From: Microcaldota archaeon
GTDB taxonomy: Archaea > Micrarchaeota > Micrarchaeia > Micrarchaeales > Micrarchaeaceae
Direction: 5' to 3'
NCBI GenBank assembly: GCA_021811605.1
Contig: JAJZNR010000012.1
Location: forward strand, 1-32,647
DNA: 32,647 nt
Shown here: positions 2 through 31,700 of the stretch, piece by piece
Position numbering within the stretch: the stretch's first letter is position 1
Layout of the letters: each line of letters starts with the position of its first letter
The notes under the pieces: model-generated
The model's input: the letters and a program-made list of their open reading frames with translations, nothing else
Told to the model about the DNA's origin: nothing
Databases searched by the model: none
Translations under genes and position numbers: made by a program

Positions 2-1096
2 ATGGCAATAATGCGCATAAACGTAGGACCGATACATCCGAGCACACATGGCGTGCTGCGCCTAGTTGTGGACGTCGACGGAGACACGGTAAAGCATGTG
101 GAGCCGCACATAGGCTTCCTGCACAGGGGAGTGGAGAAGCTCTGTGAGACGCGCATGTACATGCAGAACCCCAGCTACTTCGAGAAGCTCGATTATGTGA
201 GCCCGCTGTCGTGGGACGAGCTCTACGTGGCCTCCGTAGAGGAAGCGACCGGCGTGCAGGTGAAGGAGGCGGCGCAGTACGCGCGTGTAATAATGCTAGA
301 GCTGCAGAGGATAGCCAACCACCTGCTCTGGATAGGCACCCTATGCAACGACATAGGACAGATGTTCACGGTGTTCATGTGGTGCTTCCGCGACAGGGCG
401 AAGGTACTGAAGCTGCTCGAAGACGAGACCGGAGGTCACATGTTCTACGTGAACATGAGGCTGGGAGGCCTGCAGCGGCCGCTCTCCCCGGATTTCACTG
501 ACCGCGCCTACGCGCTTGTCGACTATCTGGAGAAGAGCGTGGCGGAATACGAAAAGGTGCTCGACAGGAACGGGATATTCAAGGAAAGGCTGGTGGGCGT
601 AGGCGTGCTCTCGAGGGAGGAGGCGATCAACTGCGGCGTTACCGGACCGGTTCTCCGCGCATCCGGAGTCGAGGAAGATGTCCGCAGGTCAAAGCCGTAT
701 TATATCTATGACAAGCTCGACTTCAGGGTTCCGGTGAAGACCGGCGGAGACAGCTACTCTAGGTACAGGATAAGGTATGAGGAGATATTCCAGAGCATAA
801 GGATAATCAGGCAGTGCCTTGACGGGATGCCGCATGGCGACATGGTAGGAGCGCCGATAAAGTTGATAGGGCAGCCTGCAAAGCCGGATGTGGTGATAAC
901 GAGAAGGGAGCTGCCGAAGGGCGAGGGGCTGATTTACATGGTGCCGGACAAGCAGAGACCATACAGGATTTCGATCAGGGCTCCCGGCTTCGTCAACCTC
1001 TCCGTTCTGTCGAAGCTGTGCGAAGGTGCGAAGTTCGCTGACATATTCGCCATACTCGGGAGCCTTGACATAGTGTTCGGGGAAACCGACAGGTAA
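2..1096 (+). CDS. nuoD: NADH-quinone oxidoreductase subunit D-like (49 kDa subunit)
   Basis: 364-aa ORF with GPIHPSTHGVLRLVVDVDGD, GFLHRGVEKL and C-terminal DIVFGETDR, typical of NuoD. The start lies at the window edge. Confidence 0.93.
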   Translation: MAIMRINVGPIHPSTHGVLRLVVDVDGDTVKHVEPHIGFLHRGVEKLCETRMYMQNPSYFEKLDYVSPLSWDELYVASVEEATGVQVKEAAQYARVIMLELQRIANHLLWIGTLCNDIGQMFTVFMWCFRDRAKVLKLLEDETGGHMFYVNMRLGGLQRPLSPDFTDRAYALVDYLEKSVAEYEKVLDRNGIFKERLVGVGVLSREEAINCGVTGPVLRASGVEEDVRRSKPYYIYDKLDFRVPVKTGGDSYSRYRIRYEEIFQSIRIIRQCLDGMPHGDMVGAPIKLIGQPAKPDVVITRRELPKGEGLIYMVPDKQRPYRISIRAPGFVNLSVLSKLCEGAKFADIFAILGSLDIVFGETDR

Positions 1097-1106
1097 GCCG
1101 TACGGA

Positions 1107-2114
1107 TCAGAGCCAGTCGGCTATGCCCTCTTCATCCATAAATTTGCGGAATGCCTCCTCTTTTCTATTTTGAGCTGCGCTCTCCTGCGCTCTCAACTCC
1201 CTGATTTCCGTTAGCAGATACGCGCTGGCTTCTTTTGGGGCGCCATTCCCCTGGAGAGCCGACGTGTCTTCATGCAGCTTTTCGCTGCGCCGCACATCCT
1301 CTTCTGTAAGCATACTGGCGATTATTGAAAAGCAGTGCCCCGCCGCGTACTCCCTGTCGTTCCTTAAGGCCGTTTCCCAGAAGTCTTTGTTGTTATTATT
1401 ATCCTCGTGCGCAGGCTTTCCGTCGACCTCGACCACGCCATACGGGTCTATCACTTTTATGACGCCATTCCTCGTTACCATTATGTTGTTTTCTTGTAGG
1501 TCAAGGTGTGCGAGCCCCCGCTTCTGGAGCTTCTTTGTGAATGATATTATCTGGTGCGCGACGTCCATGGCCTGCAAATCGTCCCTTGGGACCCACTTGG
1601 AGAGGGGGACACCTTCCACATACTCCATAAGGTATCCGGCTATACTGCCGGTCAGTGAGTTGAATAGCATTGTGGTAGGCTTGGCTACATGTTCCGGGTC
1701 TATCGCGTAGAATGTCTCCAGCATCGAGTATTCCTTCTCTAGGCTGCAAGTCACTTTTCTCCCGAAGCGGTCGTAGTTCAGTACGTGCGGTGGCTTGAAC
1801 CATATCTTGTGGCTGAACTCCCTGTTGAGAAGTATCTCTTTGGCCTCTGCTGCGATTTCATCGCATCTGTCGTCAGGAGCTTCGTTCAATGCGGAATTCA
1901 GTGCATTCCCAAAAACAGCTATGTAATTTGCATCTGAATTGATGGTGTCGACCAGTTCCCTTATCGACTCCTCTGTATGCGGAGATTTCCCGGAAAGGAA
2001 ATCCCTTACGGCCACTTCGAATGCGGCATAGCGTTCCTTCTGCTCCTTGCTGATCCCTTCGGGAAGCGGCATGACTCCGTGAAGTCCTTTCTCCGCTATA
2101 GCGTCTGGGCTCAT
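1107..2114 (-). CDS. Protein kinase-like protein with an N-terminal helical extension
   Basis: Kinase catalytic signature GLAHLDLQENNIMVTRNGVIKVIDPYG (HxD....N and DPYG), preceded by hinge-like GYLMEYVEGVPLSKW. The start overlaps the upstream gene's stop as ATGA. Confidence 0.75.
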   Translation of the reverse strand: MSPDAIAEKGLHGVMPLPEGISKEQKERYAAFEVAVRDFLSGKSPHTEESIRELVDTINSDANYIAVFGNALNSALNEAPDDRCDEIAAEAKEILLNREFSHKIWFKPPHVLNYDRFGRKVTCSLEKEYSMLETFYAIDPEHVAKPTTMLFNSLTGSIAGYLMEYVEGVPLSKWVPRDDLQAMDVAHQIISFTKKLQKRGLAHLDLQENNIMVTRNGVIKVIDPYGVVEVDGKPAHEDNNNNKDFWETALRNDREYAAGHCFSIIASMLTEEDVRRSEKLHEDTSALQGNGAPKEASAYLLTEIRELRAQESAAQNRKEEAFRKFMDEEGIADWL

Positions 2115-2419
2115 CCTCCATTCACCTGTTTCTTCCCTCCGCGGATGTAGTTCTGCGCGCCAACGGACTTTGCAGTTATGAGCGTCATCCGCGCAAGCAC
2201 CTCCTTCGATGCCTTATCTCCGACCGCGTTTTTTGCAGCTTCGGCGAATGCGCTTGCCAGAGGTTTCCACAGGCTCGGCTGCGCTTGAATCGACTGTGCG
2301 AGCCAGGACGATTCGTGCTCCTCTTTTTCGCCAGTGCTGAGATATTCGAGCGCACGCTGCTCAAATTCTAGCGGGTCAACGGAACTCGCTATCCTCCTTC
2401 CCGTCTCTGCAGTTCCCAT
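2111..2419 (-). CDS. Small helical hypothetical protein, paralogue of 3465..3740
   Basis: 102-aa ORF that aligns with the 3465..3740 product (FE.RA..YL.....E...WLA..I...P.L). ATGA overlap with the kinase, and a TATA-like ATATTTAA at 2455-2462. Confidence 0.7.
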   Translation of the reverse strand: MGTAETGRRIASSVDPLEFEQRALEYLSTGEKEEHESSWLAQSIQAQPSLWKPLASAFAEAAKNAVGDKASKEVLARMTLITAKSVGAQNYIRGGKKQVNGG

Positions 2420-2493
2420 CCCAAAGTCACCCTGTAGAAAAAGCGGTGTTTTTCATATTTAACGGTTGCGGTTCGTGTTCTGGTGAAGCAGAT

Positions 2494-3399
2494 TCATGGA
2501 GGATTCTTGCGAAGCTGAAGCTCTACCTCGTACATATCGCCGCCCTTGCAAAGCTCTACCTCGTACATCCTACCGTTGTCGAACTCTAGGACGCTTACAG
2601 ATTCACCCGTCACGTACCACGTGGTGGATACGGTAATCAGGCGGCCATCCATCTGCGTCTTTATCCCTCCGGGGGATTCGTGGCCGCGGATGACGCCTAT
2701 AAGCCCATTTCTTGAGAGGAAGTCGGCGAGCGCGGTCTTGCCGAAAGTGAACACTCCTGTGCCGCGCTTCGGGTTCTCGCCGAAATATACCGGATCTTCG
2801 GTAGGGTCGTTCCAGACCAGCTGCATGGCGGTCTGGTTGGCTACCCCTCTATCGTATATGGAAAGCACGTTGGGCCATGGAAGAAGAGATATATCGTCTA
2901 GTTTCGCTATGCCCATTGAAAGGCCGCCGTGAACGCAGAACCAGTTGTTAACCACGGCCGCGAACGGAAGCCTAGAGAAGAATCGCCCGTACACTCCGTA
3001 AGAGCCATACCCGAGCTTCTCCCCCGCTTCTCTCGTGAAACCGTACTTTTTGTTCATCTCTTCCGACTCGTGGTTGCCCCTGAGCATTATTATCTTTGTC
3101 CTGCCTCCCCGCTCGCCTTCCAGCATCTTCGAGCACAGGAGTTCCAGCACCTCGACCCCCTGCATACCTCTGTCGACATAGTCGCCGAGGAACACTATCG
3201 CGTCGGCCTTGCCGTAGAACCTGTCGAGTATCTCCTTAGTGACGGATAGAGAGCTGTGGATGTCGCTTGCGAAAATCACGTTCTTGAACTCCATCCTGCC
3301 AAGGAACGGTCCTCTGAGAAGTCGCGTAGCCTCGGCTACAGGTCGTGTACTTTCATAGCCAAGCGCGGTCTGCAGGGGCCTCTCAGTTTGCAATGTCAT
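2494..3399 (-). CDS. PPP-family serine/threonine protein phosphatase
   Basis: SDIH, GDYVDRG, LRGNHE, HGG and IRGHE motifs of PPP phosphatases. The ORF is open to 3846, but the start at 3399 (MTLQTERP) sits 22-31 bp from the TATA element at 3421-3430. Confidence 0.9.
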   Translation of the reverse strand: MTLQTERPLQTALGYESTRPVAEATRLLRGPFLGRMEFKNVIFASDIHSSLSVTKEILDRFYGKADAIVFLGDYVDRGMQGVEVLELLCSKMLEGERGGRTKIIMLRGNHESEEMNKKYGFTREAGEKLGYGSYGVYGRFFSRLPFAAVVNNWFCVHGGLSMGIAKLDDISLLPWPNVLSIYDRGVANQTAMQLVWNDPTEDPVYFGENPKRGTGVFTFGKTALADFLSRNGLIGVIRGHESPGGIKTQMDGRLITVSTTWYVTGESVSVLEFDNGRMYEVELCKGGDMYEVELQLRKNPP

Positions 3400-3464
3400 G
3401 AGAGAACGTCTGTTTATTCTGATATTTAAATGAGTCGACGAGTGAAAATGCCAGACGTGTCTTC

Positions 3465-3740
3465 CTATTTTTGCGATGCGCCGGCCAGCTGTGCACGCGA
3501 GTCGTGTATCTTTACCAGAACTGAAGACATGCGGTCGTACACCCTCATCGCGTTCCCGAGCTTTACGGTCTTTGTCGTCTCCACGTATATCTGCCTCAAC
3601 GACCGCTGCAGCTCTGGATTCGAGATTGCGGCGTTCGCGAGCCATATGCAATCTTCCTCGCTTACAGTCTCCGCTGTCAGGTAGCCCTTCGCCCTCGCTT
3701 CGAAATCGCTCTGCGTTATTGTAGCCCATCTTCCTGCCAT
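3465..3740 (-). CDS. Small helical hypothetical protein, paralogue of 2111..2419
   Basis: 91 aa from MAGRWATITQ. TATA-like element at 3768-3777. Motif FEARAKGYLTAETVSEEDCIWLANAAISNPEL is shared with the 2111..2419 product. Confidence 0.7.
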   Translation of the reverse strand: MAGRWATITQSDFEARAKGYLTAETVSEEDCIWLANAAISNPELQRSLRQIYVETTKTVKLGNAMRVYDRMSSVLVKIHDSRAQLAGASQK

Positions 3741-3844
3741 GTAATCGTAACCCTCTCTGTAGCTCCTGATATTTAAACTTGCACCCGAACACAAGAAGGT
3801 TTATATGTTTTGCAACGAGAAGGTTAGCATCTGATTGTGATATC

Positions 3845-4186
3845 ATGGACAGGCAGGAACTCGAGAAACTTACAAGAGACTACCAGACGCTTCAGGAGCA
3901 GCTGCAGGCGCTTGCCATACAGAAGGAGCAGTTCAACTCCCAGAAAGAGGAGAACAAGGAGGCGCTCGCGGAGCTGGAGTCCGCCAAGGGAAAGGTTTAC
4001 GTTGCGATAGGCGGGGCGATAGTCGAGACCGGGAAGGAAGAGGCGCTCAAGCGCGTAAAGGAACGGCAGGAGTCTGTTGAGATGAGGCTTTCCATAATAA
4101 ACAAGCAGTTCGACGACGCCTCGAAGAAGGAGAAATCCCTCAGGGAGGAGATAACTGCCGCCCTCAAGGAGCAGGGCGCGAGATAA
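3845..4186 (+). CDS. pfdB: Prefoldin beta subunit
   Basis: Coiled-coil with LQEQLQALAIQKEQ...ALAELESAKGKVYVAIGGAIVETGKEEALKRVKER. TATA-like tttatatg at ~3797. Confidence 0.9.
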   Translation: MDRQELEKLTRDYQTLQEQLQALAIQKEQFNSQKEENKEALAELESAKGKVYVAIGGAIVETGKEEALKRVKERQESVEMRLSIINKQFDDASKKEKSLREEITAALKEQGAR

Positions 4187-5212: not shown

Positions 5213-6420
5213 GGATTGCGATAGTCTCGGATCTTCATATAGGATACGAACGTTTCGAGGAAGATGCATTCCGCCAGGCCAGGGAGGCGCTCGAGAGCGC
5301 GAGCAGGATCGCAGACGCGATACTGATTCCAGGAGACGTTTTTGACAAGAGGGCGCCGAAGCCCGAGGTTATCGCCCAGGCGATAAATATCTTCAAGGAG
5401 CTTTCCGAGAAGGAGTGGAAGGCAGCGGTGGTTGAGTACGACAACAGGAGCGGAAGGAAACTCAGGACAACAGTACCTATCATTGCGATAGCGGGGACGC
5501 ACGAGCGCACCGCAGAGGGCAAGGAGAACGTTCTCGGACTGCTCGGGCTTGCCGGACTTCTCGTGGACGCGAGCGAGGCCACGGCAGTGCTGGAGCTCGA
5601 TAAAGAGAGGGTGGCGGTATTCGGACTCGGAGGGGTATCGGAAGAGCGGGTAAAGGAGGTGCTTGGTGTCCTGGACCCGAAGCCCATTGCTGGTGCATTC
5701 AACATCTTCATGATGCACCAGTCGACGTACGAACTGCTGCCGTTCAGCAGCGACATAATACATAACGAAGACCTCCCGAAGGGATTCGACCTCTACATAA
5801 ACGGACATATCCATAACAGGGTAGAGATGCAGGTGCACGGGAAGAAGTTCCTGATTCCAGGAAGCACTGTGCTGACGCAGCTGAAGGATGGCGAGCAGGA
5901 GAGGAAGGGTTTCCTTCTGTTCGACACGAAGGATTATTCGCACAGATTCGTCCCGATAAACTCAAGGGAGTTTGTTGTCGAGCACCTGAAGTTCGAGGAG
6001 GCTCCGCCTAAGGAGATTGTCAGCAGATGCGAAAAGACGTTGGAAAAGCTGCTTTCGCAGAAGGACGGGAAGCCGATAATAAAGATAGTGGTGGAGGGCA
6101 CCCTGGCAAGGGGGTTCACTAACACCGACCTTCCATTGAGGAACCTGATATCGAGGAACGCCGACAAGGCTGTGGTTGAGATAGATTACTCCAAGCTGAA
6201 GAACCCTGATGTAGAAAAGGGAGTTGAGGAGGTGCGCTCTGGAACAATGGACAGCATGTCGATAAAGGAGCAGGGCATGGTGCTGTTCCTCGCAAAGCTC
6301 AAGGAGCACAAATTCGAGAACAGGGTGGATGCGGTAACGCTGTTCGAGGTGCTGAGCAAGGAGCAGAGCAAGGAGAAGACGATCAGGGAGGCGAACGAAC
6401 TCCTTGAGAAGGGAATCTGA
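5209..6420 (+). CDS. Mre11/SbcD-like metallophosphoesterase (DNA repair exonuclease)
   Basis: MRIAIVSDLHIGYERF, GDVFDKR, AGTHER and NGHIHNR motifs. ATGA overlap with the upstream DHH gene. Confidence 0.85.
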   Translation: MRIAIVSDLHIGYERFEEDAFRQAREALESASRIADAILIPGDVFDKRAPKPEVIAQAINIFKELSEKEWKAAVVEYDNRSGRKLRTTVPIIAIAGTHERTAEGKENVLGLLGLAGLLVDASEATAVLELDKERVAVFGLGGVSEERVKEVLGVLDPKPIAGAFNIFMMHQSTYELLPFSSDIIHNEDLPKGFDLYINGHIHNRVEMQVHGKKFLIPGSTVLTQLKDGEQERKGFLLFDTKDYSHRFVPINSREFVVEHLKFEEAPPKEIVSRCEKTLEKLLSQKDGKPIIKIVVEGTLARGFTNTDLPLRNLISRNADKAVVEIDYSKLKNPDVEKGVEEVRSGTMDSMSIKEQGMVLFLAKLKEHKFENRVDAVTLFEVLSKEQSKEKTIREANELLEKGI

Positions 6421-6471
6421 TGTGTGTGTGGGTTTTCCCCGGAGGGGGGCTTCCAGATGCATGAAGTAAGT

Positions 6472-6738
6472 CTACTTCTTCCCCTTCGCCTGCTGCGCGG
6501 CCTGCGCGTGCGGGGTCTTTTCCTTTATCCCGAGAGCCTTGTTGATCGTCTCCCTGTTCTTGACGTCAATGACCTCGTTGAGGAACTCCAGATGAGCAGG
6601 GTTGCACTTCCTTTCCTTCGGCCTGTCAGCCGATACTATGCGGACGTTTCCGTCCTTCTCCGCAGCTACTATTACAGCTCGGCTTCCCGCGTCTCTTCCG
6701 TACTTCTTTATGCACATTCTTCCTGGTTCTATCAACAT
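6472..6738 (-). CDS. rpl14e: Ribosomal protein L14e
   Basis: KOW-like MLIEPGRMCIKKYGRDAGSRAVIVA...CNPAHLEFL, in the conserved archaeal adk-DUF106-L34e-cmk-L14e order. Confidence 0.88.
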   Translation of the reverse strand: MLIEPGRMCIKKYGRDAGSRAVIVAAEKDGNVRIVSADRPKERKCNPAHLEFLNEVIDVKNRETINKALGIKEKTPHAQAAQQAKGKK

Positions 6739-6748
6739 GTTTCCACCA

Positions 6749-7273
6749 TTAGAAATCTTTTTTTGAGCGCTCCAAACTCAACATCGATATCGTGGCTATC
6801 ATTTCGTCCATAGCCATCTTCTCGGTATTGAGCGTCAAGTCGAATATTGTATGATCGTCGATGTTTATCCTGTATGCGTCTGTGAAATGCCTCCTGTTTG
6901 CTTCGTCCTTCTCCGTTATTATCCTTTTTGCTTCCTTCTCCGATATCGCATGTTCCCTGGCCCACCTTTTCGCCCTCGCCTCGGCGCTCGCCACCAGCAG
7001 CACCCTGAGCGTCGCGTCCTTTATCAGCCATGGAGCGAGCCAGTTTGATGTGACGCAATCCTGCTTCTTCGCCTCTTCTATCAGCGCATCGTCGAATTTC
7101 TGGGCGAACTTCTTGTCCACATGGTGCATGAGCTCCAGGAGCCCCTCCGTGTCCTTCACGAAGTCCTTGTACGTAGGATTCAGGTGCCTTATCTTCAGGG
7201 CTTCTGCGACCTTGGCTCCGACTGTCGTCTTGCCCGTTGCTGTGAGTCCTGATATGCATATCTTCAGGACCAT
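6749..7273 (-). CDS. cmk: Cytidylate kinase (archaeal type)
   Basis: P-loop MVLKICISGLTATGKTTVGAKVAEAL, RAKRWAREHAISEKEAKR lid region, and gene neighbourhood. Confidence 0.9.
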   Translation of the reverse strand: MVLKICISGLTATGKTTVGAKVAEALKIRHLNPTYKDFVKDTEGLLELMHHVDKKFAQKFDDALIEEAKKQDCVTSNWLAPWLIKDATLRVLLVASAEARAKRWAREHAISEKEAKRIITEKDEANRRHFTDAYRINIDDHTIFDLTLNTEKMAMDEMIATISMLSLERSKKDF

Positions 7274-7284
7274 CGAAAACACCG

Positions 7285-7602
7285 TCAGTGAGCCATCAGC
7301 TGCAGCACGTACTGTCTCTGCCTCATGCCGATGTCGCTGAGCTTCATGTCGCCCTGTTCTACCCTGCTGCCGAGCTTTATCACGTCCGCGGTGCAGTTCG
7401 CGCAGAGTACGCCTCCGAAGAGCCTGCTGTTCGTTCTCCTCGTCTTGCCTCCTCCCGAGGCGCCGATCCCGTTGAGCTCTATCCTGCATATGGCGCAGTG
7501 AGGCTGGCCGGAGGGCGCTCTCCTATAATGGATGACCGTTCCACTCTTGATGTGTCGATGGGAGCGCTTGAAGCTCCTTGATCTATGCATTGGTTTTGGC
7601 AC
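7285..7602 (-). CDS. rpl34e: Ribosomal protein L34e
   Basis: MPKPMHRSRSFKRSHRHIKSG...C-x2-C...RTNSRLFGGVLCANC, with conserved neighbourhood. Confidence 0.9.
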   Translation of the reverse strand: MPKPMHRSRSFKRSHRHIKSGTVIHYRRAPSGQPHCAICRIELNGIGASGGGKTRRTNSRLFGGVLCANCTADVIKLGSRVEQGDMKLSDIGMRQRQYVLQLMAH

Positions 7603-7686
7603 GTGAGCACCTTCTTTGCTTTTGCTTTTGCTTTTACTGTTTCAAGAAGAGAAAACAGAACGATAGTATTTACCAGCGAAACCTAT

Positions 7687-8175
7687 TTATGCGCTATGCT
7701 GCGGGAGCTGCGACAGCAGGGCATCCTTCTTCGCCTTGATCCTGTCTCGCAGCATGAGCGCCATTCCGAGGGAAAATCCGAACACGAACGCCGTGGCTAT
7801 GAAAAGGCTTGAATAGCTCAGCGGCACTATGAACATTATCTGGTCACCGCCGTACACGTGGAAGAGCATCGGCAGTGCCCCGTAGTACACGGCAAAGAAC
7901 AGCGGAAGGACTATGAACATTGATTTTAGCTGCCCGTTCATGCTCTCCTTAAGCAGAGGCATCAGCTCGGCCTGCTTCGCCCTGACGTCCTGCTTCATCT
8001 TGATCATCTCGGTCATTTCCCTGTTGAGCTGCTGCATGCGCGCCTGTATTTCGCGCATCTTCTTGGGATTCGACACCTTCCTCTGTATCTTGAGGGTCGT
8101 CGACGTATAGGCGATCGCGAGCAGCACTACCGCTAGTATTACGTTGAACGGCAATGGCGCGAGCAATACTGTCAT
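7687..8175 (-). CDS. DUF106 / EMC3-TMCO1-like (Oxa1 superfamily) membrane protein
   Basis: TM segment, coiled-coil (RKVSNPKKMREIQARMQQLNREM), then TM segments. Position between adkA and rpl34e is typical for archaea. Confidence 0.85.
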   Translation of the reverse strand: MTVLLAPLPFNVILAVVLLAIAYTSTTLKIQRKVSNPKKMREIQARMQQLNREMTEMIKMKQDVRAKQAELMPLLKESMNGQLKSMFIVLPLFFAVYYGALPMLFHVYGGDQIMFIVPLSYSSLFIATAFVFGFSLGMALMLRDRIKAKKDALLSQLPQHSA

Positions 8176-8176
8176 G

Positions 8177-8752
8177 TTATTTCCCGAAGGCGTCTTTCAG
8201 GTGGTAGACGAATGTCTCCACCGTCTGTTTGAGCTTTCCTTCCTCGTTGAATATTACGTACAAGGGAATATTTAATGCTGTCGAATAGTACGACAATGCG
8301 GCAAGATTCGCATATCTCCAGTTGTTCAGCTCGAGGTCCGTGTGCCCCTCCCTTATTCTGGTCTTGTCCCTCTCGGACCTGGCCCTTATGGTGTCGTTGT
8401 CCACGTCTATAAAGAATAAGCCGCAGAGGTTCTTGAACTTCTGCATGGATTCCTGAGGCAGGCCGGGAACGTATCTCCCGGTGTGTTCGACGAAGGCGTG
8501 TGTGTCGATCATTATGTCGTCCTTCTGGTTTGCAAGGCGGTCCCACGTCTCGGCCTTTATTTCCGCATACTGTTCGTACGGCAGCTTCCTGAGGTCGTCC
8601 CTGTCTTCTGCGAGGCCCTTTTCCTTGCAGATTTCAAGCATGTAATCGGAAAAGGTCAGCTGGCGCACGCCTTTGTATTTCTTGACAACCCCTTCCATGA
8701 CGGAGCTTTTGCCTACTCCGCGTATGCCTACAACAATGACCGCCTTTCCCAT
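8177..8752 (-). CDS. adkA: Archaeal adenylate kinase
   Basis: P-loop GKAVIVVGIRGVGKSSV, IDTHAFVEHTGRYVPGLP. The start is set to 8752 because the TATA at 8783-8794 is too close to the ORF start at 8776. Confidence 0.88.
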   Translation of the reverse strand: MGKAVIVVGIRGVGKSSVMEGVVKKYKGVRQLTFSDYMLEICKEKGLAEDRDDLRKLPYEQYAEIKAETWDRLANQKDDIMIDTHAFVEHTGRYVPGLPQESMQKFKNLCGLFFIDVDNDTIRARSERDKTRIREGHTDLELNNWRYANLAALSYYSTALNIPLYVIFNEEGKLKQTVETFVYHLKDAFGK

Positions 8753-8819
8753 AGAATCCGTTAGATAGTTAGACATCTCAACATTTAAATATAATGCTCG
8801 TCACATCTAAAATGATTTT

Positions 8820-9119
8820 ATGGTTGACCGCACAGAGGAGCCTGACGTCGTGGAGCTGACCGGCCGGCTGCTTGCCCCTGGGGGCTACGACGAAGGGCTT
8901 CGCAGGATCAGGGATGGGATACGGCACGCGGAGACGCTGGTAGCAATGGGAGCGGATGCAGGTGCAGTCGAGAATGCGCTGAGGCTCCCGCACGAAATAG
9001 ACCGCAGCATAGTGGCGATATTCGAAAGCAGGCATCCTGTGCCTAACCGCATATTGGATGCGCTTCGCGTGGAACGGAGTAGAATCGACACTTTGAAGGC
9101 GGCTTCCCTAAGGCGCTAG
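8820..9119 (+). CDS. Hypothetical protein (99 aa)
   Basis: ORF starts ~26 bp downstream of ATTTAAATATAA, which fits a leaderless gene. No family recognised. Confidence 0.6.
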   Translation: MVDRTEEPDVVELTGRLLAPGGYDEGLRRIRDGIRHAETLVAMGADAGAVENALRLPHEIDRSIVAIFESRHPVPNRILDALRVERSRIDTLKAASLRR

Positions 9120-9284
9120 GGCACACGGGTCAGTGCTGCTCCTTTCCGGCTGACAAACCGCGCTGGGTAGCCCTTTGCAATGATAATTAGCGTAGTGCGC
9201 TGCGGGTTCGGTATATAGAAGGCGTATGGTTCTCCCCGTGCGCTTCCAAGCGAGTCCGTGAACAGGCAGCGAGGGGCTGAAGAG

Positions 9285-9364
9285 AAATATAGAGAAGAAG
9301 GGAAAGGAAAGAAGAAATGAAAAGAAAAAGGAAAAATAAAAGAAGAGAGGGAGTTGCTTACTCC
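9285..9364 (-). terminator. Hairpin over the thermosome stop codon plus polypyrimidine tract
   Basis: Minus strand reads GGAGT-AAGCA-ACTCC (9350-9364) across the TAA stop (9358-9360), followed by ~60 nt almost entirely C/T. Confidence 0.55.
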
Positions 9365-11025
9365 ATCTCGTGGCCATGACCGCCCATTCCCGGCATGCCG
9401 CCGCCCATTCCGCCGGCGGGTCCCTTGCTCCTCGAGCTTATCATGTCGTCGATCCTGAGGATTATCTCGGCGGCCTCGCTCGCGCTCGATATAGCCTGTT
9501 GCTTCACCTTGAGCGGCTCGTAGACGCCGTTCTTCAGCATGTCCCCGATGGAGTTCCTGAAGATGTCGACGCCGAACTGCGAACCCTCCTTGCTCTTGTG
9601 CTTGCTCCTCATCTGCACCAGGGTGTCTATCGCATCCATTCCAGCGCTCTCGGCTAGCGTCTTCGGAATCACCTCGACGGCGTCCGCGAACTTCACTATA
9701 GCGAGCTGCTCCCTTCCGCCCACATCGCTGGAATACTCCCTGAGGCCATTGGCGAGGTCTATCTCGATTGCGCCTCCGCCAAGAACGTACATGCCTGTCT
9801 CTATCACGCTGGATATGGCTCCGATTACGTCTACTATTGACCTCTCCGCTTCGTCGACAACCTGCTGTGTCCCGCCTCTCACGAATATCGTGACACTCTT
9901 CGGGTCCTTGCACTTCTCGATGAACACCATCTGTTCTCCGCCGATCTTTCGCTCTTCCACTGTGCCGGCGAATCCGAGATCCTTCTCGTCGAGATCGTCG
10001 AGGCTCGTGATTATCTTTGCGCCCGTGGCCCTTGCGAGCTTCTCCATGTCGCTCTTCTTGACCCTTCGGATTGCGATTATGCCGTACTTCGCGAGGTAGT
10101 GCTGAGCCACGTCGTCTATGCCCTTCTGCGTGACTATGACCGTAGCCTTGCTCTTCTTCACCTTATCTACCATGTCCTTGAGCATCTGCTCCTCCTGCTG
10201 CAGGAACGCCTGCATCTGGTCGGGGCTGGTTATCTCTATCTTTGCGTCGACCTCGGTCTTCTCAATCTCGAGGGCAACGTCCAGCAGCGCTATCTTCGCG
10301 TTGCTCACAGAGCGTGGCATGCCAGGGTGGGATATCTCCTTGTCCACAAGAACGCCGTTGATGAACTCGGTGTCTGATATCGCCTTGCCGGACTTCTTCT
10401 CAAGCTTTATGAAGTCGTGGTCTATCGTTATCTTGCCGGCTGCGTTCTTGTCCATTACCTGGCGGACCGCCTTGATGACAAGCTTGCACAGGTGTGACTT
10501 CGTCGCATCGTCGCCTACGTTCTTGGAGCCCATGGACACCATTGCGATCTTCTGCAGTGTGGCTTCGTCGTTTATGTCGACCTTCCTCGCCTTCTGCGAA
10601 AGTATCTCGTTGGCCTTCTCTGCCGCCATCTTGTAGCCCCTTATTATCGTTGTCGGGTGAATGCCCTGTTCTATAAGGTCGCCCGCCCCTTTGAGGAGCT
10701 CGCCGGCCATTATCACTACGCTGGTTGTGCCGTCCCCTACCTCCTTGTCCTGGGTCTTAGCTATGTCGACCATTATCTTCGCTACAGGATGCTCCACGTT
10801 CATCTCTTCCATGATCGTGGCGCCGTCGTTCGTTATGACTATGTCGCCGAGCTCGCTCACGAGCATCTTGTCCATCCCCTTCGGACCGAGAGTCGTCTTG
10901 ATGGCGTTCGCCACCGCTGCAGCCACTGCTATGTTGGTGCGCTGCGCATCCCTTCCGAGAAGCCTCGTGGCCCCCTCCGGGAGCAAAAGTACCTGTTGTC
11001 CACCTCCAATCTGAGATTCTGCCAT
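9358..11025 (-). CDS. ths: Thermosome subunit (group II chaperonin)
   Basis: [44 protein letters not shown], and Gly/Met-rich C-terminus [18 protein letters not shown]. Confidence 0.97.
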
Positions 11026-11134
11026 AGAATTCACTTTTTGTTTTATTTTTTTATCGGAAATTGCGCATACATTTTAGATGTACATATATGCATACAAAGG
11101 ATTTGGCCCTGATAATCTATGCCGGAAAAGATAT

Positions 11135-11986
11135 TTATACCTTCCTCTCTCCCGACGTTATTTTGGTTATTATCGTGTCGAATTCCTTCTCGACATCCCT
11201 GTTGGAAAGCACATGGATGGCGCCCCTGTCGGTCAGGTCCGCTACTTCCGGACGGGCCCTTATTATGCCCAACAGCTCGCTCTGCAGGGTGGATACCACG
11301 TTCTCGGTGTTCTTGCTCGGCTTGCCGTTGGACATGTTCTCTATCACCCCCAATATCGGAGCGTTCATCCGCTTCGCCATCAGCCCCGACCTGATGGAGT
11401 TCATCGCAGCGATGCGCTGCGGGTTCGTTACTATGACAAAGCCGTCGAGGTCGAGGAGCTGCATTATCGATAGCGGTGCATCAGAAGTCCCTGGGGGGAG
11501 ATCCACCACGAGGTAATCCAGCTCGCCCCAGTCCGTGTTCTCGAGGAAGTCGCTAATCATCTTCGCCACCAGCGGCCCCCTCCAGATTATTGGCCGCTTG
11601 AGCTCATCGACAAGCATAGCAGTGGACGCTACCTTTACCCCCTCTTTATCAACCGGTTTGAGCGGCATTACCGGTTCCATCTTTGTGTCCTCCATTCCGA
11701 GGAACATAGTCACGTTGGGGCAGTCTATGTCGGCGTCGAGAAGGCCCACCCTGAAGCCCTTCTTCGAGAGCGAGAACGCAAGGTTTATCGCCACCGTGGT
11801 CTTCCCTACCCCGCCCTTGGCGCTGTAGACGCCTATGCGGTGCTTTACCTTAGCCAGCTTCTGCTTTATCCTCTGCTTCTGCTGGATAACCCTAAGAAAA
11901 GATGGGTGCATGCCGGGCTGGTGCCCGTGCTGGTGTTGTGCGTGGTCGGTATGTGCGGCGTGTCCAGCGTGTTCGTTGTCTTCCAT
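11135..11986 (-). CDS. Mrp/NBP35-ApbC-type P-loop ATPase with His-rich N-terminus
   Basis: Deviant Walker A YSAKGGVGKTTVAINLA, DADIDCPN, VDLPPGTSDAPLSIMQ, IENMS. Confidence 0.9.
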   Translation of the reverse strand: MEDNEHAGHAAHTDHAQHQHGHQPGMHPSFLRVIQQKQRIKQKLAKVKHRIGVYSAKGGVGKTTVAINLAFSLSKKGFRVGLLDADIDCPNVTMFLGMEDTKMEPVMPLKPVDKEGVKVASTAMLVDELKRPIIWRGPLVAKMISDFLENTDWGELDYLVVDLPPGTSDAPLSIMQLLDLDGFVIVTNPQRIAAMNSIRSGLMAKRMNAPILGVIENMSNGKPSKNTENVVSTLQSELLGIIRARPEVADLTDRGAIHVLSNRDVEKEFDTIITKITSGERKV

Positions 11987-12426
11987 AATGACCGTTCCTT
12001 TTCATTCGTAGGTTCCGTCTATTTTGGTAGCGTTTGTTTTGCTGTGTATGCAATAAAGATAAATGATACTGATAACGTGAACGTTCTCAGGCTACGGATC
12101 CCCCTGCCCCCTTCTTGAGGGTTTTCCCGAATCCGCATACCAGATACATCAGTTCATCTGTGTATATACGCCTTTCCATAAGCCCGCCTCACGGCGGGAG
12201 CTTTGCTCGTGGTTGATTCTGCCAAGAAATCCCGAGTGTTGCTCATGGCTGTTTTTTCTGCTACCTGGACTCTTCATGGAGTGGAAGAAGGGGAGTTTAT
12301 GGGGGAGTTATGGGCCGCGTCTGCGGCGGGCAAAGATTAAAATAAGCGTATGTTCATAACATCTTTTACACCCAGTACTAGAAACGGTAACTCTGTTTAT
12401 TGGAAGGGTGTGGAAAAAGTGATAGA

Positions 12427-12777
12427 ATGAAAATATCAGAACTGAAGGCAGGCGCGAGCAATGTGACCGTGCAGGGCACGGTCTCGCAGAAGGACGAACC
12501 GCGCGAAGTCGTGACGAAGTATGGCAAGAGGCTCCAGGTATGCAACATAGTGCTCAAGGACGAGTCTGGTCAAATACCGATGTCGCTCTGGGGTAAGGAC
12601 ATCGACATGGTCGGCCAGGGAGACACGATCGAGATATCGAATGGCTACGTGAACGAGTTCAGGGGCAACCCGCAGCTCTCCACTGGCAAGTTCGGAAAGA
12701 TAAAGGTTGTGTCGAAGGGCGACGGCAGTGCTGCGCCAGCGGCAGACGAGCCAAGCGAAGAGGACATGGAGCTGTAA
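12427..12777 (+). CDS. OB-fold single-stranded DNA-binding protein (crenarchaeal SSB/RPA-like)
   Basis: VTVQGTVSQKDEPREVVTKYGKRLQVCNIVLKDESGQIPMSLWGKD...IEISNGYVNEFRGNPQLSTGKFGKI, with acidic tail EEDMEL. Confidence 0.85.
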   Translation: MKISELKAGASNVTVQGTVSQKDEPREVVTKYGKRLQVCNIVLKDESGQIPMSLWGKDIDMVGQGDTIEISNGYVNEFRGNPQLSTGKFGKIKVVSKGDGSAAPAADEPSEEDMEL

Positions 12778-15969: not shown

Positions 15970-15983
15970 ATTTAAATATCTGA
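15970..15983. promoter_or_regulatory. TATA element between the divergent Nudix gene and tRNA-Trp
   Basis: ATTTAAATATCTGA, ~22-35 bp from the Nudix ATG and ~21-34 bp from the tRNA 5' end. Confidence 0.55.
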
Positions 15984-23485: not shown

Positions 23486-23724
23486 ATAACATTTTCAGAT
23501 ATTTATAGCTAAGCAGAACTTTTTCGGTTTGTTAAACGGTTGGGAACATGACGCTTCGTCCAGCGACGTTGTGGCGCAATCCCTTTTAAACATGGAAATT
23601 ACACACACAGCAAGGGGAGGTACATGACAACAGACGGTTTGTCTGGACTGATTTTTGAGGGAGGCTTCCTTGATTGTATGTTTTTCCTCGTCATTACATT
23701 AATGCTCGATAGAAGGTGGGTAAA

Positions 23725-26700
23725 ATGCAATCTGTATCGTTGTACCTGGTAGTTTTACTGGCTGTGCTTGCGCCGCTGACGGTTGCTTATGCAACGTATA
23801 CGCCAATAAGCTTCGGACAGTCATCTGTCGTGCTTAGCGGTGGTGGTTGGTGGTGTTTCATACCCTTCCTGTGCAGCCCATCGTCTACTACGACCACCAC
23901 ATTGTGGCCCACTACATCAACGTCTGTCCATACCACGACAACAACCACACATACGACAACGTCCAGCGTGTACACATGGCTGACGACAGAGCCCACAACC
24001 TCATTTCATACTACGACCCCGACAACATATGTATCGTATATAGTTACTACAGCACCGCCTACCACTGCACCGCCTACTACAGTACCGCAGCAGCAGCAGT
24101 CGCAACCTGTAACCTCGTGGCACACCTACATAACGGCGTCGCCAACGTCCCTCACGGCTGGACAGACGGTAAAGCTTACAGCGACAGTAGACCACCAGCT
24201 TGGAAGTTACAATCTTGGCTTTGAGTATCAGTCTGGTCCCTGGAGCTGGACTGTGATTCCGACAAACTGCAAAGGGTATACGAATACATGCACGGCTAGT
24301 TACACCTCTTATTCTGCCGGTAGCCTGAACTTCCTCGCATATATAGCTAACAGTACCTGGTCCGGAGACGAGTCAGGTACTGCCAGCGTAACATGGAAGC
24401 CCGCATACGTATTTACCAATACCACGAACAAAACCACGACCGGAGGCACGCCGGGCTCCGGATCCGGCTCTGGAGGCACAGCGCCTCAGCCGGCTTCTTG
24501 GGGCACCACGCTCAGTGCATCGCCAACTGCGCCGGTTGCTGGAAGCACTACGACGCTTACGGCGACTGTGAACCACCAGCTTGGAAAATACACTCTCGCA
24601 TTCGAATATCAGTCTGGACCGAACACGTGGACCCTGCTGAATTCCGTGTGCAGCGGAACAGCGACAAGCTGCACAGCTAAATATACTTCAAACGCGGGCA
24701 AAACGATTAATTTCATGGCGTATGTAAGCAATAATACGTGGTCTGGCAATGTATCTAGAACAGTGCCTGTCACATGGTCGGCGCCTGTAGCCAACACAAC
24801 GGCAAACGCAACGGCAAACTCTACCGGAGGGACCAGCCCGCCACCATGGATTATCACGCTAACGGCGTCGCCAACCACGCTTTATGCCGGAAATGCGACG
24901 AGACTCACCGCAACGCTGAACCGGCCGGTAGGACGCAACCATCAACTAAGGTTCTCCGCAGGATCGAAGTGGGGCTTTACGGCTTATGGTTGTACTGGAA
25001 CAGGATGCGTTGCCACCTACTCCAGCCCTACTGCAGTTACCATGGCCATCACCGCGATAGTGAGCAACAGCAGCTGGGCGGGGGTGGACTCGAATCCCGT
25101 TTATGTCACATGGAAGACACCGATGGCTCCGCCAAACATGACGGCAAACTCCACCGTGAACAGCACAGTGAACGGAACGGTGAACTACACAGCGCCGGCA
25201 GACACGGGCTCGAACAACATCAGCTTCATCGCGTATCCGCTCCAGGCAAATGCCACCGAGCTTGGCAGTCCGTTCTCGCCTTCCCAGATAACGACACAGC
25301 TTGGCAACTGCGGAACCAATCCGCTAAGATGCGTGGTTCTGCAATGGTCTACGGTTGGAGGAGGCAGCGCCGAGAGATGCCAGATTACGGTAAACCCTGA
25401 CAACATCGGATTCGGCACTCCAGACCCGGTTCCCTGTGATTATTCGATGCGGGTGGCGCTGGAGCCGCCGCAGGGCACCGCACCGCAGCCATATACGTTC
25501 ACTCTCACGTTCTACGCCAGCCCATCATCACAGCCAGTAACGAGGTCGTTGACGGTTTACTCTTTGCCAACCGTAATCCTTCCATCGAATGCTGGAGGAA
25601 TAAATAATAGTGGAGGCCATGATTTTAGTGCCGTGGCCCTTAACTGCGGTGGACCATTCAACATGTGCAAGACGTTGGACCAGCAGGCGAGCAACAACTC
25701 CGATGGCACCCTGATCGCTGGAGGGACATTGTCATTGGGTCCAAGCGGTTATAGTAGCGAGGATAGAAACGAGTACGTCTCTGATCAGCTAAGATATCCA
25801 AGTTCTTACCTGGGCAGCGTCGTGCCGTATTCGGATAACACCGCTTATACCGTATACGTCAATACCTACCCTGCATGGAACACCGGATGCACAAGCTGGG
25901 GCGCAGGCGCCGCGATTTGGGGAGGAGCCTATATCGAGATATCGTCTGGGGACGCTTTTGGAAGCGCATTCGATCATCGTGCCTGGGTTTGCAGCACCAA
26001 ACAGCTTGACCTTTCGTTCATCCCGCTTCCGGGTCTCAGCGATTTTGCCGCATATCTTGCCGGTTTGGGTGAAGATGCCATATCAAGGCTCGTAGGAAAC
26101 TCCGCTAATAGCGATAGTTTCACTCCGATTAGCCTGTCACAGTCGTCAACGGCAATGTCGCAATTGCAGACACTGTCTGCCGACTTGCAAAACCTGAATG
26201 GCGTAAACAATTTCGAACCTGATAAGAACGGGCAGAGCATCGGAGATGTAGGTTATTGGCACATCGGTTATTTGGGATGGTCGTGGTCCACTGGTGCCCT
26301 GCCGGTGGGCACCGATTATACTGCCGGAATCACGCTTCTGGCCCACGAAGACTTACAGGAACTTTTGAATGTAGGAACCGCCAATAGCGTACTGCTGGCG
26401 GGCACTACTGTCCAGGTTGCAATGGCAGGAGTCGCCACACCTCCAGTCTCCGGTGCAGGCAGCGGCTCTTACACTCCGCCGATAATGGCGCCTCCTCCTT
26501 CGTCCGGTACAAATACAACGCAGTCCTCCCCCACGCCTGCGAACAACACCAACGCGACAGCAGGAGGTGGAAGCAGCTCCGGATCGTGGATTGTCACGCT
26601 AGTGGCTTCGCCGACAGTTCTTACCACAGGCACCGCAACTACGCTGACCGCGACAGTGAACCGCCAGATTGGTAACCACGAACTCCAGTTCGGATTCTCG

Positions 26701-28515
26701 ACAGGCAAGAATTCGTGGGGCTTTGCGGGAAAGAGCTGTACTGGAGCTGTGACCGTGTGCACAACAACGTTTACGGCCACCACGGAAAAGACCATGAACT
26801 TTACGGCGATGATAGAGAATAACAGCTGGATGGGTGTGGATTCGAATCACGTATATGTGACGTGGCAGACACAGCCGCTGAAATCGAATAGCACGTGGAC
26901 ACCGACGCCAACCTCTACAACCTCGACGACATCAACAACAACGACAACGCAGTCAACGGCTCCTACTACAAGTGTGCAGCCAGGACCGACGACCATAGCA
27001 ACGACAACCATCCCGACCCCAAGCACTCAGAATGCCTACGTCCCGATAATCATAACGAACGGGCAAGGAACCCCGACCTCGCCGGGATTACAGCAGATGA
27101 TTACATTCAATCCGTCCCAGTATTCGGGTTATGAGAGTTCCGATCTAGGCAACATAAGGTTCTACTACGGGAACACCACACTTTACTCGTGGTGCGAATC
27201 TGGATGCAGCAACTCCTCGAGCACTTCTGTGTTCTGGATTAAGCTACCCGCGCAGATACCAGGCGGGGGAGGCAGCATCCAGGTGAACATGACGTTCATG
27301 CCTGTTGGTACGGAATACGATGGTGTATACGCGGGTGAGGCTCCGCAACTCAGCCCCAGATACGCAGAGTTCGACAACGGGGCTAACGTCTTCACAGGCT
27401 ACTGGAACTTCGAAGGGACAAGCCTTCCTTCAGGTTTCACAGGAAGGACCCACGGAGATGCAACCTATACTGTAGATGATGGAGTTACGTTTATAGGGGA
27501 TGGATTTGTTACAGACGCCGGGATAGTGACTACTTCGCAGTATTCCAATCTGGTTGCAGACGTCGGTGGAATTTCAGTCTCCAATGGAGGTGACATAAAT
27601 CTAGAGTTGACGAAAACGGACCAAGTCCCAACATACAACCCGCAGAACGGTGGCTATCCGGATGCATACTTGGTCGGCACGGGTTCTACAAATCCCGGGA
27701 GCGTTACACTGTCCTATATAGACAACGTAAACAATGCATTCCCAACCCCATGTTCGGAGAGTGCGAGCCAGGCGGGCGTGCTCAGTCTGTACTGGAACGC
27801 CAGCCCTATGCAGTATTACGGAGCCGGATACCAGAATTCCAAATGCTCCGCAGCTAATGTGTCATACGCGCCGTATTACATTGGTGTATACACCGGGTGG
27901 GCGCCGACCCCCGATTCGTCGTTCCACTGGCTGCGCACTAGGGCGTATCCGCCAGGTGGAGTCATGCCAAACGCCAGCTTAGGGGGCATCGTGGGATCGC
28001 CTTCTACTTCAACATCTGCCTCTACCACCACCAGCACTGCCACCACTACGTCCACCACAACCGCGTCCACCGCGAGCACGACCATTGCCCAATCCGTTTA
28101 TTCGCCGCCTGGGCAGGCGCTGGACAGCTGGTCCTCGGATGGGATAAACGTGGACATGTACAATGACCCCAATGCGGGCTTGACGTTCGTGCTGTCGGGA
28201 AGCGGGCTCAGTGCCGGAGACAGAGTGCATGCGCAGATTATAGTGATATCCAACTGCTATTCTTGGAGCCAGGGACCTATCCCATACGCCTGGGCGAACC
28301 TAAACTTCACAGCTGGTTCGAGCAATATAAACGGATACTATGCCGCGCCGAATCAGACGGTCTTCGTATGGAACCACCCGGCCTTCAATCAGTATATCAC
28401 AGGATCTGAGCCCAACACCTGTTCAGCGTACAACGAGATTGGAGGTGCGTTTATCCACAACAGCCTTGGGATACTGTTTAACGACACCGCGAATGGGCAT
28501 CAGATACAGATATGA
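23725..28515 (+). CDS. Giant (~1600 aa) surface protein: signal peptide, Thr-rich linkers, four Ig-like repeats, DUF2341-like domain
   Basis: MQSVSLYLVVLLAVLAPLTVAYA signal peptide, Thr/Ser stretches, repeats ending in VTW, and YVPIIITNGQGTP...MITFNPSQYSGYESSDLGNIRFYYGNTTLYSWCESG resembling DUF2341. GGTGG is upstream. Confidence 0.8.
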   Translation: MQSVSLYLVVLLAVLAPLTVAYATYTPISFGQSSVVLSGGGWWCFIPFLCSPSSTTTTTLWPTTSTSVHTTTTTTHTTTSSVYTWLTTEPTTSFHTTTPTTYVSYIVTTAPPTTAPPTTVPQQQQSQPVTSWHTYITASPTSLTAGQTVKLTATVDHQLGSYNLGFEYQSGPWSWTVIPTNCKGYTNTCTASYTSYSAGSLNFLAYIANSTWSGDESGTASVTWKPAYVFTNTTNKTTTGGTPGSGSGSGGTAPQPASWGTTLSASPTAPVAGSTTTLTATVNHQLGKYTLAFEYQSGPNTWTLLNSVCSGTATSCTAKYTSNAGKTINFMAYVSNNTWSGNVSRTVPVTWSAPVANTTANATANSTGGTSPPPWIITLTASPTTLYAGNATRLTATLNRPVGRNHQLRFSAGSKWGFTAYGCTGTGCVATYSSPTAVTMAITAIVSNSSWAGVDSNPVYVTWKTPMAPPNMTANSTVNSTVNGTVNYTAPADTGSNNISFIAYPLQANATELGSPFSPSQITTQLGNCGTNPLRCVVLQWSTVGGGSAERCQITVNPDNIGFGTPDPVPCDYSMRVALEPPQGTAPQPYTFTLTFYASPSSQPVTRSLTVYSLPTVILPSNAGGINNSGGHDFSAVALNCGGPFNMCKTLDQQASNNSDGTLIAGGTLSLGPSGYSSEDRNEYVSDQLRYPSSYLGSVVPYSDNTAYTVYVNTYPAWNTGCTSWGAGAAIWGGAYIEISSGDAFGSAFDHRAWVCSTKQLDLSFIPLPGLSDFAAYLAGLGEDAISRLVGNSANSDSFTPISLSQSSTAMSQLQTLSADLQNLNGVNNFEPDKNGQSIGDVGYWHIGYLGWSWSTGALPVGTDYTAGITLLAHEDLQELLNVGTANSVLLAGTTVQVAMAGVATPPVSGAGSGSYTPPIMAPPPSSGTNTTQSSPTPANNTNATAGGGSSSGSWIVTLVASPTVLTTGTATTLTATVNRQIGNHELQFGFSTGKNSWGFAGKSCTGAVTVCTTTFTATTEKTMNFTAMIENNSWMGVDSNHVYVTWQTQPLKSNSTWTPTPTSTTSTTSTTTTTQSTAPTTSVQPGPTTIATTTIPTPSTQNAYVPIIITNGQGTPTSPGLQQMITFNPSQYSGYESSDLGNIRFYYGNTTLYSWCESGCSNSSSTSVFWIKLPAQIPGGGGSIQVNMTFMPVGTEYDGVYAGEAPQLSPRYAEFDNGANVFTGYWNFEGTSLPSGFTGRTHGDATYTVDDGVTFIGDGFVTDAGIVTTSQYSNLVADVGGISVSNGGDINLELTKTDQVPTYNPQNGGYPDAYLVGTGSTNPGSVTLSYIDNVNNAFPTPCSESASQAGVLSLYWNASPMQYYGAGYQNSKCSAANVSYAPYYIGVYTGWAPTPDSSFHWLRTRAYPPGGVMPNASLGGIVGSPSTSTSASTTTSTATTTSTTTASTASTTIAQSVYSPPGQALDSWSSDGINVDMYNDPNAGLTFVLSGSGLSAGDRVHAQIIVISNCYSWSQGPIPYAWANLNFTAGSSNINGYYAAPNQTVFVWNHPAFNQYITGSEPNTCSAYNEIGGAFIHNSLGILFNDTANGHQIQI

Positions 28516-30777: not shown

Positions 30778-31536
30778 CTATTTTCCCGGCTTCTCAAGGG
30801 GTTCTGAGTGGATTACTGTTTTTGTAATTTTGACTGTTTCTACTATCTTTATCTTGTCAGAATCAAATATCACATAAGAGTCATGGTTCCCCTGCCCTTC
30901 ACCTCCCTCGATTGCAAGTATGCCATCAAAGCTTAGCCCTTTTAGATAATTTGAGAATAGGTTTCCAACGCCGTGCAGGACATCTTTTGGGGTGATAATT
31001 TCAGTTTTTACTCTGCCTCTACCAAACTTTGAGAACTGTCGATATTCGGAGTCAGTGCCCTCTAATATGTCTATAGTTCCTATTGCTGCTTTTACGGTGC
31101 CCTCCCACCACCATGTAAGTTTTCCGCTTTTTTTCTCTTTCTCAAGCTCGTTTACCAGGTACTCTCTGAATCCTTTAGCTACCTTCCTTAGCTTCTCGTT
31201 ATTGACATCGTCTCTGATGTCAACGAAGTCCATGTTTTCAACTTCTACCTCATAAACTACTGGAATTCGTTTACCATTGTGCAGAACAATGTGCTGTCTC
31301 AAATCTTTTGCAGCATCCTTATCGTATTCCAACGCTTGCCCTCTGTCGCTTCTTATCAATGCATAATACTCAGCTTTGCCCCTTTCAGAAGTAAAATATG
31401 TTCCTTGCCCAACGGTGGAATCTAATGCTTTCAGCAAAACCTTTATTCCTCCAGTTGCTGATCCGTGATAAAGAGTCGCATGATCAACATGTACATATGG
31501 TATGTTCTGCTTCGAAACTTGCGTTGCCGTCGCCAT
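30778..31536 (-). CDS. Predicted ADP-ribosyltransferase-fold protein
   Basis: TLYHGSATGGIKVLLKALDSTVGQGTYFTSERGKAEYYAL...VYEVEVENMDFVDI...FDGILAIEGGEGQGNHDSYVIFDSDKIKIVE follows an ART (H-Y-x) layout. Confidence 0.55.
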   Translation of the reverse strand: MATATQVSKQNIPYVHVDHATLYHGSATGGIKVLLKALDSTVGQGTYFTSERGKAEYYALIRSDRGQALEYDKDAAKDLRQHIVLHNGKRIPVVYEVEVENMDFVDIRDDVNNEKLRKVAKGFREYLVNELEKEKKSGKLTWWWEGTVKAAIGTIDILEGTDSEYRQFSKFGRGRVKTEIITPKDVLHGVGNLFSNYLKGLSFDGILAIEGGEGQGNHDSYVIFDSDKIKIVETVKITKTVIHSEPLEKPGK

Positions 31537-31567
31537 CCAGTAACCCTAATGCTATTGCGTCATTTTA

Positions 31568-31577
31568 GATATTTATA
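31568..31577. promoter_or_regulatory. TATA element upstream of the ART-like gene
   Basis: GATATTTATA (minus TATAAATATC), ~32-41 bp from the ART ATG at 31536. It is near-symmetric and could also fire rightward. Confidence 0.5.
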
Positions 31578-31587
31578 CCTTAGTGCA

Positions 31588-31700
31588 TGCCAGAGCGGTG
31601 CGAGGGCTTGTAGCTGAGGCGGTCGCTGCGAGCGAGCCGGGAGGCGACAGCTACTGGGCGAGTCGAGCGGCGGGAACCGCCGAAACGCTGATTCTGGGCA
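31588..31700. ncRNA. Candidate structured RNA in an AT-rich island
   Basis: GC-rich segment with closing stem TGCCAGA.GCG / CGC..TCTGGGCA, stem GTAGCTG/CAGCTAC enclosing TCGCT-GCG-AGCGA, and hairpin CGGCGG-GAA-CCGCCG. Strand undetermined. Confidence 0.5.

Follow-up and report, generated by a model that had tools for sequence, protein, structure and literature searches.

A small kinase, a PPP-family phosphatase and two paralogous helical proteins at a variable chromosomal spot in a Micrarchaeota genome

Gene order, reading frames and promoter boxes

The window analysed here, 32,647 nucleotides long, is the whole of contig C3 of a Micrarchaeota MAG whose genome is 63% complete. Four genes lie on its minus strand within 2.6 kb in the order B-PPP-A-kinase, encoding small protein B, a PPP-family phosphatase, small protein A and an atypical small kinase (Table 1). 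They stand between a nuoD-like gene on the left and prefoldin-beta-like, DHH and Mre11-like genes on the right, the latter three named by sequence inspection. The four same-strand open reading frames called in an earlier sequence-only reading were confirmed: codon usage in these frames matches that of the surrounding window genes and scores +60 for the kinase, +16 for A, +67 for the phosphatase and +18 for B, and it is negative for all five other frames of each gene. The kinase ATG and the stop codon of A overlap as ATGA at 2114-2111, so that the coupling of A to the kinase described in that reading also stands.

Table 1 Features of the four-gene locus and its boundaries (window coordinates).
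Feature	Position	Strand	Remarks
nuoD-like gene, left boundary	2..1096	+	genus-wide conservation; 76-85% identity in same-genus genomes
Kinase gene	1107..2114	-	335 aa; atypical small kinase
Small protein A gene	2111..2419	-	102 aa
TATA box TTAAATAT	2455..2462	-	predicted promoter of the A-kinase unit; 8/9 match to TTTAAATAT
PPP-family phosphatase gene	2494..3399	-	301 aa; Arn/PP2A clade
TATA box TTTAAATAT of the phosphatase gene	3422..3430	-	about 31 bases before the ATG
Small protein B gene	3465..3740	-	91 aa; paralogue of A
TATA box TTTAAATAT of gene B	3769..3777	-	exact match
Prefoldin-beta-like gene, right boundary	3845..4186	+	58-79% identity in same-genus genomes
DHH and Mre11-like genes	after the prefoldin-beta-like gene		genus-wide synteny

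The phosphatase frame is open as far as 3846, and 3399 is its best start; this is also the natural start, because a perfect TTTAAATAT lies 31 bases upstream, and the transcript is probably leaderless. The TATA box of A begins 44 bases ahead of that gene's start. Exact copies of TTTAAATAT number four in the 32.6-kb window against 0.18 expected, and since exact or near copies also precede other window genes, the element has the appearance of an ordinary promoter box. The two exact boxes outside the locus are on the plus strand, at 8784-8792, upstream of a 99-aa ORF (8820-9119) without a Pfam match, and at 15971-15979. Because there are three predicted TATA boxes, the locus is best described as three transcription units, with B, the phosphatase and A-kinase each suggested to have a promoter of its own; a single operon of four genes was rejected, as the three boxes count against it.

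Two further stretches of the window were recorded in passing. At 30778-32606 on the minus strand, an ART-PolyVal-like gene (a sub-threshold ADP-ribosyltransferase match) adjoins a Fic/DOC gene, G+C falls to 45%, and the stretch looks horizontally acquired. A protein of 1583-1599 aa encoded at 23716-28515, with Thr-rich linkers, recurring units of ~90 aa and no Pfam match, is likely a large surface protein.

The small helical proteins and the kinase

The similarity of A and B noted in the sequence-only reading held up well, with a BLASTP E-value of 3e-7 (30% identity across 67 aa) and a local alignment 10.5 sd over shuffled sequences, and judged by sequence the two are true paralogues. Four helices are predicted in A (residues 16-29, 34-46, 48-64 and 68-94), and its AlphaFold model, mostly confident at a mean pLDDT of 78, also has four helices; the model has no significant match among solved or viral structures (best Foldseek E 0.74). 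Profile searches with A and B assigned them to no family, returning nothing above chance from Pfam, NCBIfam, PHROGs or PADLOC, where B gave one off-family NCBIfam match far below cut-off, and no natural protein in the PDB was convincingly matched. Neither protein matched a known substrate, adaptor or phospho-binding domain, and a known phospho-binding fold (FHA etc.) was not found in these Pfam-less proteins with their all-helical model. Across 301 genomes of the phylum no relatives of A or B scored beyond chance level, and scans of GTDB contigs and of viral contigs, in which the patterns reach only relatives that keep a short motif, found none. Two candidates were not accepted: an A-like protein near the kinases of genome G042 (L041 2283-2573), at E about 0.04, and a PDCD5-like protein in G233, whose E of 0.014 for one genome amounts to chance over 301 genomes.

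The kinase consists of a helical N-terminal extension of ~95 aa, which exceeds that of most relatives in length, a core at ~100-235 and a ~100-aa C-terminal extension. The extension might itself be a third A/B copy fused to the kinase, with A and B as free-standing versions of a regulatory domain, since the best alignment recurs in one register (A F19 with kinase F32, FEQRALEYLS / FEVAVRDFLS) and both regions are predicted as four helices. This origin is nonetheless very improbable: the alignment is not significant (p=0.38 for A, 0.11 for B), hhalign gives the extension a probability of 0.3% and several of 150 unrelated micrarchaeal proteins score higher, the helix pattern fits no more closely than random helical ones do (p=0.96), and the single-sequence structure model of the kinase, at pLDDT 45, is too poor for use. 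We rejected the proposal as unsupported by sequence, profile and helix-pattern tests.

The kinase call itself was borne out by the retained catalytic residues, the motifs comprising FK107, E128, GYLMEYVEG (160-168), H203-x-D205-x4-N210 and I222-D223-P224. With RIO/Bud32/Kdo-type kinases the protein shares a small core, H-x-D..N and the metal-loop D, and it scores 27.9 bits against Pfam RIO1 (cut-off 22). It differs in lacking the ATP-binding loop of RIO (STGKEA/STGKE), which four RIO1-like genes in relatives do encode; its metal loop reads IDP in place of DFG; and it stays far under the cut-off of the NCBIfam Bud32 equivalog (22.9 bits versus 188). The Pkinase profile scores 23.9 bits, under its cut-off of 31.7. 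Assignment as RIO1, Bud32 or a canonical Hanks kinase was thus rejected by profile or motif. The anti-phage PD-T4-6 profile also reached the kinase, with E down to 5e-9, in matches confined to residues ~160-240; a defence system was rejected, as these matches cover the generic kinase core alone and the whole PD-T4-6 profile was not matched.

In an alignment of 45 micrarchaeal kinases the catalytic K, E, HxD, N and IDP are conserved. The hallmarks of a ~200-aa IDP kinase family among them are FxK, the helix-C E, P..P, GYxxExxxG, HGDxxxxN and IDP; the window kinase shares these columns, with HGD reading HLD, and scores 174.8 bits against the family profile, which includes the window sequence. 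On this evidence the window kinase is a derived member of a patchy kinase family (HGDxxxxN…IDP) of the micrarchaeal order. Clear members occur in about 35/164 genomes of the order, and weaker matches to the family profile are for the most part other kinases, probably Bud32. IDP kinases are found in variable islands of ORFans, sometimes in tandem runs. Tight spacing to the upstream gene, as in the A-kinase pair, was rejected as a family rule, being no more frequent for small kinases (10/42) than in the background (164/709).

The patchy family is expanding, and we found no described function for it. One run, in L133 (G193:C1) at 7629-12602, comprises five related IDP kinases of ~200-260 aa on one strand with a sixth one gene away; smaller clusters occur in L046, L047, L048 and L041/L049.

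The phosphatase and the variable spot

The phosphatase call of the sequence-only reading agrees with a Metallophos match at E=4.7e-25, and the best PDB relatives are calcineurin, BSU1, PP1 and PP2A. All ligand and catalytic residues are kept (D46, H48, D73, R77, N109, H110, H157, H240), the PPP motif set (GDxHG, GDxVDRG, GNHE, H, H) is present with GDxHG degenerate as SDIHS, and the protein classifies by sequence as a eukaryotic-like PPP-family phosphatase. Plasmid relatives came to one weak bacterial match. In a midpoint-rooted tree sampled from the 80 best loci, it falls within a 24-leaf clade (support 0.994) of micrarchaeal, Bathyarchaeota and Sulfolobales PPPs, which is the clade of the PPPs of FHA-PPP-vWA(ArnB_C) operons. 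Its closest relatives outside the phylum are those of Bathyarchaeota and Sulfolobales, in which the PPP gene is flanked on one side by a (zinc-ribbon/)FHA gene and on the other by a vWA gene that encodes an ArnB C-terminal domain; in nine Bathyarchaeota-type contigs a gene for a Ser/Thr kinase of 708-773 aa lies beyond the FHA gene, on the side away from the PPP. FHA (ArnA) and vWA/ArnB_C (ArnB) proteins were found in 0/10 micrarchaeal genomes, of which the window genome is 63% and the others up to 92% complete, and the Sulfolobus control was positive. The micrarchaeal genomes with this PPP that were searched thus lack FHA and ArnB, and other partners would therefore be needed. A related PPP occurs in six other micrarchaeal genomes of the order, never with a small kinase, A or B next to it.

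Gene order is kept throughout the genus for nuoD on the left and for the prefoldin-DHH-Mre11-like genes to the right, and the junction between them holds, in other species, ORFans, pilin-like genes, a glutamine-synthetase-like gene or a repeat protein, or is direct. Among 13 same-genus genomes the PPP was found in 0/13, and no relative of A or B scored beyond chance level. Because same-genus junctions hold other genes or nothing, without PPP, A or B, the four genes form an insertion specific to this lineage at a variable position. The sequence-only reading had named a lack of co-conservation in relatives as an outcome that would refute it, and this was observed; in no other micrarchaeal genome carrying both are PPP and small kinase linked. 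A viral origin was rejected: pattern scans returned no viral relatives of A/B, the kinase or the PPP, and A and B have no PHROG match.

In a sister genome, the same junction encodes a 441-aa protein (L083 of G006, 6326-7651) with ~ten near-identical 'AAKIWLQLDNKxRAAEAYEKxGxY' repeats.

A candidate phospho-switch and its relation to known systems

The proposal of a phospho-signalling module found partial support. Four genes that sister genomes lack at this place stand on one strand between genus-conserved genes, and both enzymes retain their catalytic residues. The main argument for a unit is the flanking of the PPP by one paralogue on either side, together with the coupling of A to the kinase; the second is that the PPP clade in Bathyarchaeota adjoins a kinase and partner proteins; the third is a weak co-occurrence at genome level, a clear small kinase being present in 4/6 other PPP-bearing genomes of the order versus 34/163 overall (p=0.018, kinship ignored). 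Against a unit stand the occurrence of the set in a single genome, without co-conservation, the three predicted promoters, the background level of tight spacing upstream of small kinases, the failure of A and B to match any substrate, adaptor or phospho-binding domain already described, and the record of the locus as a collecting place for unrelated genes.

The most likely reading, which we put forward tentatively, is that an Arn-clade phosphatase was re-partnered: beside it now stand a small kinase and two helical proteins confined to this lineage, the latter as substrates or adaptors. The locus could then be, with the same reserve, a phospho-switch that this lineage alone put together, at a variable site of the micrarchaeal chromosome. 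Nearly as likely, and itself short of an even chance, is simple accretion, in which the nuoD/prefoldin junction serves as a landing spot for unrelated genes that are neighbours by history and not by function. Accretion fits a junction whose content differs, or is absent, in each same-genus genome, the finding of PPP and small kinases each alone elsewhere, the three predicted promoters and the unremarkable spacing upstream of the kinases. Opposite enzymes together with paralogues flanking the PPP in 2.6 kb are, however, much to ascribe to chance: two given single-copy genes would fall within two gene steps in a ~900-gene genome with a probability of about 0.4%, a figure that flatters the link, as the pair was picked after the fact.

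A narrower reading takes A and the kinase alone as a functional pair, with A an obligate activator, inhibitor or chaperone, B a diverged relic or active elsewhere, and the PPP unrelated. The ATGA overlap and common promoter, the separate promoters of B and PPP, and the long helical kinase extension as a plausible docking site all speak for it; B, however, still shows coding potential and has an exact promoter box in front of it, close spacing to the preceding gene is nothing out of the ordinary for a small kinase, and we regard a pair of this kind as improbable.

The enzyme activities, interactions, use of A and B as substrates and cellular role that we infer for the four genes under the re-partnered reading would be as follows. 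The small kinase would phosphorylate A, B or both, or else a third protein held by A/B, at the expense of ATP, and the phosphatase would take the phosphate off. Through translational coupling A would be made in step with the kinase, and with B and the phosphatase on their own promoters the balance could be set separately. A and B might fill the role that ArnA and ArnB have for PP2A in Sulfolobus, as a phosphorylation-dependent partner or scaffold between kinase and phosphatase. A bolder version, which we consider rather unlikely, is that a Micrarchaeota lineage rebuilt an Arn-like switch from an Arn-clade PP2A that had lost its FHA/vWA partners, a member of a fast-evolving family of minimal IDP kinases and a duplicated helical protein, lacking known relatives, as the substrate/adaptor pair.

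Ser/Thr phosphorylation has hardly been studied in DPANN archaea, and a 2021 survey listed only three DPANN PPP sequences and described eukaryotic-like ones as nearly absent (PMC8249667). An Arn-clade PPP is present in several Micrarchaeota without the usual FHA/vWA partners, and in the window it adjoins a member of a tiny-kinase family expanding within variable islands. Should the four genes cooperate, then tiny genomes are able to rewire signalling with parts born locally; should they not, the locus still illustrates clearly how genes turn over at such a variable spot.

Among known systems, bacterial Hanks kinase and phosphatase pairs of the PrkC/PrpC type resemble the locus in encoding a kinase and an opposing phosphatase together. 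The phosphatase of such pairs is of the PPM/PP2C type, whereas the window has a PPP, an atypical kinase and ORFans. The Arn phospho-module of Sulfolobales comprises the FHA protein ArnA, the vWA protein ArnB, PP2A and the kinases ArnC/ArnD (PMC7472852, PMC6509490, PMC10470591), and Sulfolobus PP2A binds ArnA and ArnB and opposes kinases (PMC7472852, PMC10470591). The window phosphatase belongs to the same clade and likewise has a kinase and small proteins encoded beside it. In contrast to the Arn module, the window genome and nine other micrarchaeal genomes searched lack an FHA protein and ArnB, the candidate partners in the window are all-helical ORFans, and the kinase is small and atypical.

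The Bathyarchaeota-type locus constitutes an Arn-like module outside Sulfolobales with a kinase gene alongside. Its kinase/zinc-ribbon-FHA/PPP/vWA-ArnB_C arrangement was seen in L151, L153, L154, L156-L159, L161 and L168, with the PPP at 8001 in most, at 4730 in L154 and at 6348 in L161. Unlike the window, these loci have FHA and vWA genes, and their kinase of 708-773 aa is eukaryotic-like (Pkinase 83 bits in L153), has a hydrophobic N-terminal half and is divergently oriented. As in the window, the PPP is kinase-linked, and it shares 40-43% identity with the window phosphatase.
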